DNA of 32,096 bases from Brachyspira sp. G79 (GTDB taxonomy: Bacteria; Spirochaetota; Brachyspiria; Brachyspirales; Brachyspiraceae): positions 1,771,970 to 1,804,065 of the forward strand of contig NZ_JQIU01000008.1 in NCBI RefSeq assembly GCF_002379365.1, given 5' to 3'. Both the position numbers and the translations under genes were made by a program. Of this stretch, positions 5,397 to 32,096 are shown one piece after another. The stretch's first letter is position 1. Each line of letters begins with the position of its first letter. The notes under the pieces were generated by a model, which saw only the letters and a program-made list of their open reading frames with translations, did no database searches and had not been told where the DNA came from.

Positions 5397-6134
5397 TTAA
5401 ATAGAAAATATAATATTAATACTTTTTCCTAGCATATGCTGAGAAACAGTTTGTATAAAGCCAAGTACAGTTCTTAATATTCCAGCAAATAATAAAGCAT
5501 AAAGAATCAAAAAACCATAAGGATATATTTTATCATAAGTACTCTTTCCTTTAGGTGATAAGAAAAATCTCAATATCCAGCCTCCGTCTAATGGAGGAAA
5601 AGGCAAAAGATTAAAAAACATAAGCATTATATTAATCATATAAAACATAAAAAGCATAGTTAAAACTATAGGTAAAGCATTAAGCATTATATTTGTAAGC
5701 ATATTATCATGCTGCTCTAAAAACATCATAATTTTATATATTATAAAAGTTCCGTCTGCTGTAAATGTGAGTATTTTGATTATAATAAATGATACAGTAG
5801 CTATAATAAGATTGGCAAAAGGACCTGCAAATGAAACTAATGCCTGATCTCTTTCAAAATTATTAAAATTATGCGGATTGACTGGTACAGCCTTCATCCA
5901 GCCTATAACTGGAATACCAGTAACTGCTGCAATTAAAGGAAGAAGAACAGAACCTAATATATCAAGATGTGCCAATGGATTAATGGTAAGCCTTCCTAAA
6001 CTCATAGCTGTTCTGTCTCCTAGAGTATAGGCTGTCTTGGCATGAGAATATTCATGCATACTTGCTGATATAATAAACACTACATAGGATATAATGCCTA
6101 TAGAAAGTCTGTTAGAAAATATTTCATAAACCAT
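5397..6134 (-). CDS. M50-family (site-2 protease type) membrane zinc metalloprotease
   Basis: A 245-residue polytopic protein of the short M50B / YwhC-like group. The zinc site is H27-E-Y-S-H31 (HExxH) in the first membrane segment. The third ligand is D183 in NLLPFPPLDGG (the N-x-x-P-x-x-P-L-D-G signature of site-2 proteases). Between them the family motif FAGPFANLI (about 102-110) is present. At least four hydrophobic segments are visible. Site-2 proteases cut transmembrane segments of substrates such as anti-sigma factors; this short form has no PDZ domain, and its substrate is unknown. The start has AGGAA upstream. All catalytic residues are intact. The window also encodes a membrane anti-sigma factor, but nothing here links the two. 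Confidence 0.85.
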   Translation of the reverse strand: MVYEIFSNRLSIGIISYVVFIISASMHEYSHAKTAYTLGDRTAMSLGRLTINPLAHLDILGSVLLPLIAAVTGIPVIGWMKAVPVNPHNFNNFERDQALVSFAGPFANLIIATVSFIIIKILTFTADGTFIIYKIMMFLEQHDNMLTNIMLNALPIVLTMLFMFYMINIMLMFFNLLPFPPLDGGWILRFFLSPKGKSTYDKIYPYGFLILYALLFAGILRTVLGFIQTVSQHMLGKSINIIFSI

Positions 6135-30048: not shown

Positions 30049-30522
30049 TTATTTACCCATATAATAAATATAAGCTGACATTATTGATATTTCTTCGCTT
30101 CCTTCATCTATATTCTCTTCATCGCTGTAGCTGAAATAGCTTGATAATGGCGTATAATCCTCATCGCTTATATTATAGTCTATAACTGTTTTTATTGAAG
30201 AAGAGTTATTTGCTATTATAGCAGAGTTATTATCAGACTGCTGTTTATATAGGCTATTAATGCCTGCAAATATTAATAAAGCAGCTGCCAAAGAGCCTAT
30301 AGAAGCTATTACTTTATTTTTATTAAATATTTTCTTTTTATGTACTATTATAGTTTTTTTACCGCATAGTATAGATGACATAGAATCAAGTTCTTCTTTA
30401 AACTTTTGACAAGATTTACAACTAGATAAATGTTTTTCCAGCTCAAATATTTCATTACTGTCTAAATCATTATCTTTATATCTGCTTATAAGCATTTCAT
30501 AATATTCATGATTATTTTTCAT
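30049..30522 (-). CDS. Membrane anti-sigma factor with a zinc-finger (ZAS-type) domain
   Basis: A 157-residue protein with an N-terminal anti-sigma domain carrying H31-x3-C35-x2-C38 (EKHLSSCKSCQKF), the ZAS motif of RsiW/RsrA-type anti-sigma factors. Another Cys lies at 53, a basic stretch at 61-70, one membrane helix at 71-89, and a periplasmic tail of about 68 residues that is Ser/Asp/Glu-rich with no recognisable domain. It overlaps the ECF sigma gene by 4 nt (ATGA, 30519-30522), the standard sigma/anti-sigma arrangement. It should hold the sigma factor at the inner membrane until a periplasmic signal or proteolysis releases it. Redox sensing by the Cys pair is possible but unproven. Confidence 0.85.
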   Translation of the reverse strand: MKNNHEYYEMLISRYKDNDLDSNEIFELEKHLSSCKSCQKFKEELDSMSSILCGKKTIIVHKKKIFNKNKVIASIGSLAAALLIFAGINSLYKQQSDNNSAIIANNSSSIKTVIDYNISDEDYTPLSSYFSYSDEENIDEGSEEISIMSAYIYYMGK

Positions 30523-31070
30523 AAAGTTACCCCCATCTTTTGCATAATAGATAAAAGTTTTTTTCTAGCTCTGAATATTCTGGTTCTTACCGTATTAACA
30601 GGCAAGTCCAGTTTTTCAGATATTTCGTTATAAGAATAATTTTCATATTCTGCCATCATAAGCGGTATACGAAAATCATCTTCAAGTTTTGATAATGCTT
30701 CTGCTAATATAATCTTATTTATACTATTATCATTATCAGACTCCTGCACTTCTGAATTTCTGTATTCTTTTATCCTGTATTTTTTTTCTCTTTCTCTTTT
30801 TCTTATATGATCCACTGCCCTATTAAAAGATACTCTATAAAGCCAAGTATATATTTTACTTCTGCCTTCAAAACTTTCTCTTTTTATATAAAAACTTACA
30901 AAAACGTCCTGCACTATCTCTTCAGCTTCTTCGCTGTTTGAAATGATAGAATAAACCAAATTAAACAGCGGTTTTTTGTACATTTCTACAAGCTCTTTGT
31001 AAGCTTCTTCATTACCTGCTTTAAAAGCTTCTATATTATCTTCATACGCCATAATACCAGCACCGCTCAT
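30519..31070 (-). CDS. ECF-family RNA polymerase sigma factor
   Basis: A 183-residue group 4 sigma factor with only regions 2 and 4. Region 2 is PLFNLVYSIISNSEEAEEIV, then QDVFVSFYIKRESFEGRSKI and YTWLYRVSFNRAVDHIRKRE. Region 4 is LEDDFRIPLMMAEYENYSYN, then EISEKLDLPVNTVRTRIFRA and RKKLL, with the helix-turn-helix. An acidic Glu/Asp/Asn linker joins them. A second in-frame ATG at 31052 (MAYEDN) is an alternative start, since the sequence before 31070 has AAGG too close and a weaker ATAGG. The gene is 19 nt after the Spy-like gene and should be transcribed with it. Two GGAAC-N17-CGTC promoters upstream suggest it activates its own operon. Confidence 0.92.
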   Translation of the reverse strand: MSGAGIMAYEDNIEAFKAGNEEAYKELVEMYKKPLFNLVYSIISNSEEAEEIVQDVFVSFYIKRESFEGRSKIYTWLYRVSFNRAVDHIRKREREKKYRIKEYRNSEVQESDNDNSINKIILAEALSKLEDDFRIPLMMAEYENYSYNEISEKLDLPVNTVRTRIFRARKKLLSIMQKMGVTL

Positions 31071-31089
31071 ACCTTATAAACCTATGTTG

Positions 31090-31536
31090 TTACTGCATTT
31101 TTTTATTTAATAAAGCCTTTTGGCTCGGAGTAAGTACATCTATTATGTCCAAATCTCTTACTATTCTTAAATAATCTCTCAAGGCTTCCTGTTCTTTTTT
31201 GCTTCTTATTAGTTCTTTTAATATGTTTCTGTCAGTATTTTCTTTCATTAACTCCATTCTAATGTCATTATTTATTCTTTCTATCTCAAGTCTGATAGGT
31301 TCATCTTCAGTGATAAATTTTATTGCTATATCATACATTATCTCAGCTTGTTCATCTGTAAGTGTTATACCTATTTTTCTAAAATACTGCAAAGGATCAT
31401 TGCCTAATCTCTTATCAAATTCAGCTCCTCTCCTATGTCTTGGTCCATGAGGTCCAGGTCCTTTTGGTCCGGGCTGAGCAAAAATAGATAAAGACAATAC
31501 AAATATCAAAGACACCGTACAAAATATTTTTTTCAT
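31090..31536 (-). CDS. Spy/CpxP-like periplasmic LTxxQ protein
   Basis: A 148-residue protein with a signal peptide (cleavage at FA/Q, residues 20/21), then a Pro/Gly/His/Arg-rich start (GPHGPRHRRG). Next is a helical body with two LTxxQ motifs: LTDEQ (59-63) and LTPSQ (135-139). Both motifs and the length match the Spy/CpxP/ZraP group, periplasmic chaperones and stress or metal sensors that fold as curved helical dimers. The His residues near the N-terminus could bind metal. It is paralogous to the protein encoded at 31620-32015 (GITLTDEQ against GVEINKEQ; NTDRNILKELIRSKKEQEAL against KTDVNLNTIKELIFEKKTKEA). It lies upstream of the ECF sigma gene with its own ECF-type promoter. Confidence 0.8.
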   Translation of the reverse strand: MKKIFCTVSLIFVLSLSIFAQPGPKGPGPHGPRHRRGAEFDKRLGNDPLQYFRKIGITLTDEQAEIMYDIAIKFITEDEPIRLEIERINNDIRMELMKENTDRNILKELIRSKKEQEALRDYLRIVRDLDIIDVLTPSQKALLNKKMQ

Positions 31537-31592
31537 AAATTCTCCTTATCTGTTACATATTATTATATATCATCTATTATCTTAATTAGTTA

Positions 31593-31618
31593 GACGATAT
31601 TAACTTGTTAAAAGTTCC
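31593..31618 (-). promoter_or_regulatory. ECF-type promoter P2, before the Spy-like gene and sigma factor
   Basis: On the minus strand GGAAC (31618-31614, continuing TTTTA), 17 nt, then CGTC (31596-31593, continuing TAA). GGAAC...CGTC is the classic ECF/sigma-W-type signature. The -35 begins just after the stop codon of the upstream gene. It is almost identical to P1 at 32055-32080, with the same spacing. Confidence 0.8.
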
Positions 31619-31619
31619 C

Positions 31620-32015
31620 CTATTTTTTAAAAATTATATAGTATTTTATTCTTTTTATATCACTATTAGAAAACAATTCTAATATATCCAAGTCGCATGA
31701 CATTATAATATAGTCAAAATCTGCCTCTTTTGTCTTTTTTTCAAATATTAATTCCTTTATTGTATTTAAATTAACGTCAGTTTTTTTATATTCATTATTA
31801 AGTTTTGATTCTATATCTTTTATTTCTAATAATAATTGTTTTACATAAGGCATATATTTTTTTACTATTAAATCAATATTTTTTCTTTGTTCTTTATTTA
31901 TTTCAACTCCAGCATTATGAAGAACTTTTAATGAATTATCATTTATATAAAAATTATCCTCAGCATATAAACTACTCAATACAAATAATAAAGCAATAAT
32001 TATTATTTTTTTCAT
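31620..32015 (-). CDS. Spy-like periplasmic protein, divergent paralogue
   Basis: I choose ATG 32015 (MKKIIIIALLFVLSSLYA, cleaved before EDNF; GAGGA 8 nt upstream) rather than the in-frame ATG at 32039, whose extra residues precede the signal. The ~131-residue product is helical and aligns over its whole mature length with the Spy-like protein at 31090-31536. LTxxQ is changed to INKEQ, and the second motif is lost (LFSNSDIKR). It lacks the Pro/Gly/His-rich mature N-terminus. The role is likely related (periplasmic chaperone or sensor) but diverged. An ECF-type promoter lies 40 bp upstream. Confidence 0.7.
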   Translation of the reverse strand: MKKIIIIALLFVLSSLYAEDNFYINDNSLKVLHNAGVEINKEQRKNIDLIVKKYMPYVKQLLLEIKDIESKLNNEYKKTDVNLNTIKELIFEKKTKEADFDYIIMSCDLDILELFSNSDIKRIKYYIIFKK

Positions 32016-32054
32016 GCATAAAATCCTCATAAAATTCAATGGTTTAACTTTTTA

Positions 32055-32080
32055 GACGAATAAAAAAAGATAAAAGTTCC
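32055..32080 (-). promoter_or_regulatory. ECF-type promoter P1, before the divergent Spy-like gene
   Basis: On the minus strand GGAAC (32080-32076, continuing TTTTA), 17 nt, then CGTC (32058-32055, continuing TAAA). It has the same boxes and spacer length as P2. Transcription would start about 30 nt before ATG 32015. Confidence 0.8.
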
Positions 32081-32096
32081 TATAAATAACTTTATT

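Follow-up and report, generated by a model that had tools for sequence, protein, structure and literature searches.

The window is a 32,096-nucleotide stretch of the genome of Brachyspira sp. G79. A block on its minus strand (32080-30049) carries promoter P1, a Spy-like gene, promoter P2, an LTxxQ gene, an ECF sigma factor gene, and an anti-sigma factor gene in this order. These parts and their order had been claimed in a sequence-only reading of the window, and all of them were found in their places as follows.

32080-32055, minus strand: promoter P1, GGAACTTTTATCTTTTTTTATTCGTC, GGAAC-N17-CGTC(TAA), 5' of the second Spy-like gene
31620..32015, minus strand: second Spy-like protein of the periplasm, a paralogue of the LTxxQ protein; 131 aa with a signal peptide
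31618-31593, minus strand: promoter P2, GGAACTTTTAACAAGTTAATATCGTC, GGAAC-N17-CGTC(TAA), 5' of the LTxxQ-sigma-anti-sigma operon
31090..31536, minus strand: LTxxQ protein of the periplasm (Spy/CpxP-like), 148 aa with a signal peptide and an N-terminal tail rich in His, Gly, and Pro
30519..31070, minus strand: ECF sigma factor, 183 aa (ATG at 31070) or 177 aa (ATG at 31052)
30049..30522, minus strand: membrane anti-sigma factor, 157 aa, zf-HC2 domain, one transmembrane (TM) helix

Each of the two Spy-like genes has a separate promoter copy on its 5' side, and P2 begins 1 nt past the stop codon of the second Spy-like gene. The window also contains a short ORF of the M50 family (site-2-protease-like) at ~5487-6083 on the minus strand (G000:C8:1777456-1778052).

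The LTxxQ protein (P0003) falls below the curated Pfam cut-offs for both Metal_resist (3e-5) and LTXXQ (0.0035), but its predicted fold matches CpxP, ZraP, and Spy, in agreement with the Spy-like nature that had been claimed. A PDB search with the profile of its orthologues yields CpxP (E 0.009). The AF2 model (pLDDT 82) is matched by Foldseek with CpxP (3itf), ZraP (3lay), Spy, and CnrX at a probability of ~1, though with E-values of only 0.02 to 1, those for CpxP, ZraP, and Spy being about 0.02-0.1; such modest values are expected for short helical proteins. The model suggests a helical hairpin of the Spy type, and two LTxxQ-like motifs, LTDEQ and LTPSQ, are found in the sequence. The N-terminus, judged by eye, is an apparently cleavable signal peptide ending in FAQ, not a membrane anchor. 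The folded core contains no invariant His, Met, or Cys residue. His accounts for 5.9% of the residues in the N-terminal tails of the LTxxQ proteins versus 1.4% in the core, so that the tail may bind metal; acidic residues are likewise conceivable as ligands.

The second Spy-like protein has no Pfam match to LTXXQ or Metal_resist, though profile comparison and fold bear out the claim that it is a paralogue of the LTxxQ protein. The two orthologue profiles align in hhalign at 98.4% (29% identity, E 8e-15), and the AF2 model (pLDDT 78) is matched by Foldseek with ZraP (3lay), NccX (4clv), and CnrX.

The ECF sigma factor has only Sigma70 regions 2 (Sigma70_r2, 2e-15) and 4 (Sigma70_r4_2, 8e-15) in Pfam, and its length of 177-183 aa is within that of group 4 sigma factors (~170-200 aa). 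The best NCBIfam model is SigW-like. A GGAAC/CGTC-type promoter at its own operon, predicted to be autoregulated, is also typical of the group.

The start codon of the anti-sigma gene overlaps the stop codon of the adjoining sigma gene (ATGA), and the zinc-type domain is recognised above the Pfam cut-off (zf-HC2, 2e-5), both as anticipated from the sequence. A profile search of the PDB gives RsiW at E 0.24. In the N-terminal HxxxCxxC domain, His31, Cys35, and Cys38 are invariant among 13 sequences, and a single hydrophobic stretch at ~72-90 forms the one TM helix, in agreement with a ZAS anti-sigma factor. The short outer tail ends with EISIMSAYIYYMGK. This tail is otherwise variable in Brachyspira, but two short aromatic motifs, PLSSYFSY and IMSAYIYYMGK, are kept. 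Two SxYxxY-like copies are found in the tails of G065 and G073, and the anti-sigma tails retain motifs of the [ILV]xS[SA]YxxY type.

Promoter sequence and predicted regulon

The pattern GGAACTTTT-N11-14-CGTC gives two matches in the window and none in any of 100 dinucleotide shuffles. Across the 26 Brachyspira genomes, GGAACTTTT-N11-14-CGT occurs 189 times, compared with 33 times for its reversed control. In the fetched loci, the GGAAC-CGTC spacer is 16 nt in 73 and 17 nt in 37 of 112 distinct sites, which are partly orthologous and from related genomes, and hence are not independent events, but which precede at least 14 gene families. TAA directly follows CGTC in 110 of the 112 sites, though it was absent from the search pattern. 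Judging from these sites, the predicted −10 element is really CGTCTAA, and the spacer is 16 or 17 nt across the genus. The GGAAC-N17-CGTC elements claimed for P1 and P2 both match, and the claim is refined accordingly in spacer and −10 element. In the alignment of P1 (18 sequences), GGAAC, TTT, and TTCGTCTAA are nearly invariant, and GGGAACTTTT and CGTCTAA are conserved in that of P2 (26 sequences). The promoter code of the sigma factor is thus predicted to be GGAACTTTT-N-CGTCTAA.

Brachyspira has a second ECF sigma factor with a small anti-sigma factor of its own, and no copy of the motif was found near that locus. This observation, together with the autoregulated position and the conservation of the motif at the operon studied here, suggests with good confidence that the sigma factor in the window reads these promoters.

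The regulon was assembled from pattern searches and fetched stretches, and the genome-wide motif search proposed in the sequence-only reading yielded a coherent envelope regulon. Among 69 sites sampled from about ten genomes, 60 were assigned to 14 gene families; about half of the assigned sites lead to Spy-like families, and most of the others to envelope genes. For the remaining nine, no target gene was recognised; three of these precede an ORF of an unassigned family or a decayed rhodanese frame. Besides the operon itself, the genes behind motif sites in the genome of the window are a third Spy-like gene, a cluster containing two others of this kind, genes for a PepSY-like protein, a DUF4405 membrane protein, and a periplasmic rhodanese, a TolC/adaptor pair, and three RND pumps, of which one is preceded by a small lipoprotein-like gene; a tandem pair of sites in this genome has no ORF. 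The Spy-like families align mutually (most links 92-99.9%, one family weaker), whereas the rhodanese and PepSY controls do not, and the members Spy4 and Spy7 exceed the Metal_resist cut-off. The proposal that the LTxxQ and Spy-like proteins are targets of the sigma factor gains from these positions: each of the two lies behind its own promoter copy and more Spy-like families lie behind motif sites, which makes them probable targets. For the one RND pump tested, multidrug models score best, not CusA or CzcA, and no metal-specific gene was found among the regulon targets.

Two sites were dropped from the set: C8:1555675 (GGAACGCG...), which is without TTTT and TAA, and C9:230147, which overlaps an ORF on the opposite strand. 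In L084 (G018:C1:257451), a rhodanese behind a perfect sigma site is without the usual start codon; it may be decayed or may use another start. Runs of N, representing masked or withheld sequence, are found near two regulon genes (L040 in G000:C8, and L221).

Distribution in Brachyspira and other spirochaetes

A sigma orthologue is found in all 26 Brachyspira genomes, with 70-99% identity where it is intact, and the named species carrying the locus include B. innocens, B. alvinipulli, B. hampsonii, B. pilosicoli, and B. catarrhinii. The LTxxQ-sigma-anti-sigma order is kept in 26 of the 26 genomes checked. P1 and the second Spy-like gene are present in 17 genomes and absent from eight, and one genome is undecidable since the contig ends there. 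Conservation of the four-gene order, posed as a check in the sequence-only reading, thus holds for the three-gene core throughout the genus but for P1 and the second Spy-like gene in only 17 of 26 genomes. All 26 genomes have a copy of P2, with a −35 variant in the most distant member (G019). In G004 (C1:2136395-2136924), the sigma frame is broken within an A-rich run, while the promoters and partner genes are intact; a sequencing error is possible.

The LTxxQ profile matches 62 of 296 Spirochaetota genomes. An ECF gene lies within the same few kb at 17 of 20 fetched LTxxQ loci from outside Brachyspira, a figure that describes LTxxQ genes beside an ECF gene and not the reverse, the loci having been picked from the LTxxQ matches. 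The LTxxQ gene is directly upstream of the ECF gene on the same strand in 15 of those 17. A zinc-type anti-sigma factor is recognised in the nearest relatives and in four further loci, weakly in some. At most of the other loci, the ECF gene is followed by a protein of 87-133 aa with one hydrophobic helix and no CxxC; CnrY is of about this size.

The LTxxQ-ECF-zinc anti-sigma order behind the same motif recurs in L265 and L266, which represent two further genera or genomes of the family, the split into genera being made by genome handle. A third genus has the motif both before a stand-alone LTxxQ gene and before an LTxxQ-ECF pair. The association of LTxxQ/Spy and ECF genes is wider than spirochaetes, since distant ECF loci in Bacteroidota and Obscuribacterales (L154, L193, L212, L174, L175) sometimes have a Spy-like gene nearby, after the sigma gene. 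These clusters are like the Brachyspira locus in this proximity and unlike it in that the Spy-like gene follows the sigma gene and does not precede it, as far as a crude motif scan can tell. No experimental description of them was found.

Proposed mechanism, alternatives, and known systems

We propose, with a probability of roughly 0.65, that the locus encodes an autoregulated extracytoplasmic-stress circuit in which the LTxxQ protein helps hold the anti-sigma factor. The sequence evidence speaks well for the predicted self-amplifying circuit and the regulon. Modulation of the anti-sigma factor by the LTxxQ protein, which the sequence-only reading had also put forward, is likely, and is indirectly favoured by the LTxxQ-ECF linkage across Spirochaetota (17 of 20 loci) and by the conserved aromatic outer tail. 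The signal, the contacts between proteins, and the way in which the sigma factor is released we infer as follows. At rest, the ECF sigma factor would be held by the zinc-type membrane anti-sigma factor, whose short aromatic outer tail would be in contact with the soluble LTxxQ protein, and this contact would help keep the anti-sigma factor in the holding state. Exposure of the tail would follow when misfolded envelope proteins draw the Spy-type proteins off, or when the latter bind a metal or a toxic compound. The anti-sigma factor would then free the sigma factor, whether through a conformational change or through cleavage and subsequent action of the M50 site-2 protease. The sigma factor would then read the GGAACTTTT-N-CGTCTAA promoters. 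Firing of P2 would give more LTxxQ protein, sigma factor, and anti-sigma factor, and firing of P1 would give the second Spy-like protein and read-through. The unlinked promoters would supply other Spy-like chaperones, RND/TolC efflux, the periplasmic rhodanese, and the PepSY-like protein. The extra LTxxQ protein and anti-sigma factor would finally close the loop.

The LTxxQ-sigma linkage could also be that of a target gene merely sharing the operon. The Spy-like proteins would then be chaperone targets only, and the anti-sigma factor would sense stress by itself through proteolysis, as in the SigW-RsiW or RseA type. The many Spy-like genes elsewhere in the genome, which clearly appear to be targets judging from their promoter sites, agree with such an arrangement, as do the RsiW-like zinc domain and the preference of the sigma factor for the SigW model. 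SigW-RsiW (B. subtilis) and RpoE-RseA (E. coli) likewise combine an ECF sigma factor with a one-TM anti-sigma factor, and the zinc domain is common to RsiW and the Brachyspira protein. A site-2 protease is available as well, since an RseP-like M50 protease is present elsewhere in the genome. Unlike in these systems, no PrsW was found in the Brachyspira genome, and no site-1 protease was identified there; with the M50 protease present and PrsW absent, proteolytic release of the sigma factor is still conceivable. We know of no Spy-like gene in the SigW-RsiW and RpoE-RseA operons. The LTxxQ-ECF linkage is phylum-wide even where the type of anti-sigma factor differs, which is beyond the need of a target gene. 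This observation and the absence of PrsW make a pure output role of the Spy-like proteins less likely.

A metal sensor of the CnrX type is unlikely. In such a sensor, a transition metal bound by the LTxxQ protein would cause signalling through the anti-sigma factor, freeing the sigma factor and turning on metal defence. The fold matches to CnrX and NccX, the His-enriched N-terminal tails, the RND pumps in the regulon, and the short one-TM anti-sigma factors of CnrY-like size after the ECF gene in many spirochaete loci are what this model would predict. However, CnrX signalling requires a conserved Met ligand (PMC7689651), and no His, Met, or Cys is invariant in the folded core of the LTxxQ protein. 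The protein also has a signal peptide in place of a membrane anchor, the tested pump is of the multidrug type, and none of the targets found is metal-specific. The CnrX comparison made in the sequence-only reading holds in fold but fails in these two features, core ligands and membrane anchor, owing to which the circuit is not classed as CnrYXH. The CnrYXH and NccYXH systems of Cupriavidus metallidurans are nevertheless alike in that a single operon unites an ECF sigma factor, a membrane anti-sigma factor, and a helical Spy/CnrX-fold protein of the periplasm, with RND efflux among the targets (PMC7689651). The Brachyspira circuit further differs in its zinc-type anti-sigma factor, its X-H-Y gene order, and a regulon rich in Spy paralogues. 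Finally, it is highly improbable that another sigma factor, such as the second ECF of the genus with its small anti-sigma factor, reads the motif and that P1 and P2 do not reflect autoregulation, since the motif is missing near that ECF locus and is kept at the present operon both in Brachyspira and in two further genera of its family.

The proposed circuit, with the LTxxQ protein acting on the anti-sigma factor, belongs with the ECF/anti-sigma systems that have a periplasmic Spy-fold partner. The closest folds, CpxP, ZraP, and CnrX, all act on a membrane transducer or sensor (PMC6737893; PMC7689651). The Cpx system of E. coli (CpxP, CpxA/CpxR) is similar in having a soluble periplasmic protein of the CpxP fold, itself a strong target with probable feedback on a membrane sensor, and in having Spy among the targets (PMC6737893). 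The presence of P2 suggests that the LTxxQ protein is a target in the same manner, as for a feedback inhibitor of the CpxP type. Contrarily, the transducer in Brachyspira is an ECF sigma/anti-sigma pair and not a histidine kinase, and several Spy families are present versus one or two. ZraP-ZraSR shares the Spy-fold protein (3lay is among the top structural matches) and differs in being a zinc-responsive two-component system. According to Appia-Ayme et al. (cited in PMC6737893), ZraP is reportedly both a chaperone and a repressor of its own regulator.

Since the core recurs across the phylum, the circuit looks like an undescribed spirochaete counterpart of the Cpx and Cnr envelope-stress systems. 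The literature search gave nothing relevant on a Brachyspira ECF sigma factor or on LTxxQ-ECF links, though subscription papers lay mostly outside it and an earlier mention is possible; no description of envelope stress control in Brachyspira was found either. Three features seem to be new: the promoter code, a Spy regulon of several families, and the linkage of LTxxQ and ECF genes across spirochaetes. Brachyspira includes gut pathogens of pigs, birds, and people, and a specific sigma factor is now available for this genus together with a predicted promoter code and regulon, the latter comprising chaperones and multidrug pumps. The phylum-wide linkage further suggests that control of membrane transducers by Spy-fold proteins, as with CpxP, ZraP, and CnrX, is recurrent and extends to anti-sigma factors. 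We tentatively raise the possibility of a spirochaete-wide module in which the aromatic tail of the anti-sigma factor directly reads the occupancy of soluble Spy-type chaperones. If so, a CpxP-like logic would operate on a sigma/anti-sigma pair with different types of anti-sigma factor plugged in, and the pool of free chaperone, made up of many Spy paralogues that are all targets of the same sigma factor, would set the threshold.

Sigma sites before non-coding stretches

A few motif sites lie 5' of non-coding stretches. Two tandem sites 290 nt apart (G000:C8:953018 and 953308; L042, L218) have no ORF downstream, and related ORF-less stretches occur in L073, L085, and L108. The predicted RNA behind C8:953308 forms hairpins with GGAGGTTTATG (GGAGG) in or near the loops, is strongly conserved in three genomes only, and matches no Rfam family above the gathering score. 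This transcript is a candidate sigma-dependent small RNA, possibly of the CsrA-titrating type, csrA being present. A decayed leader of a Spy gene is as likely as a small RNA at this site, since G002 and G020 have related leaders in front of a Spy-like ORF. In these two genomes (L061, L122), a long structured leader with GAGG/GGAGG lies between the sigma site and the Spy-like gene, and it resembles the ORF-less transcript of L085. Another tandem pair is found in L057 (G001:C1:1631484 and 1631653, minus strand; also in G003:C14), where a terminator-like hairpin, but no ORF, follows each site within ~110 nt. The first of the two transcripts contains GACTCCTC, and the pair are candidate twin small RNAs.
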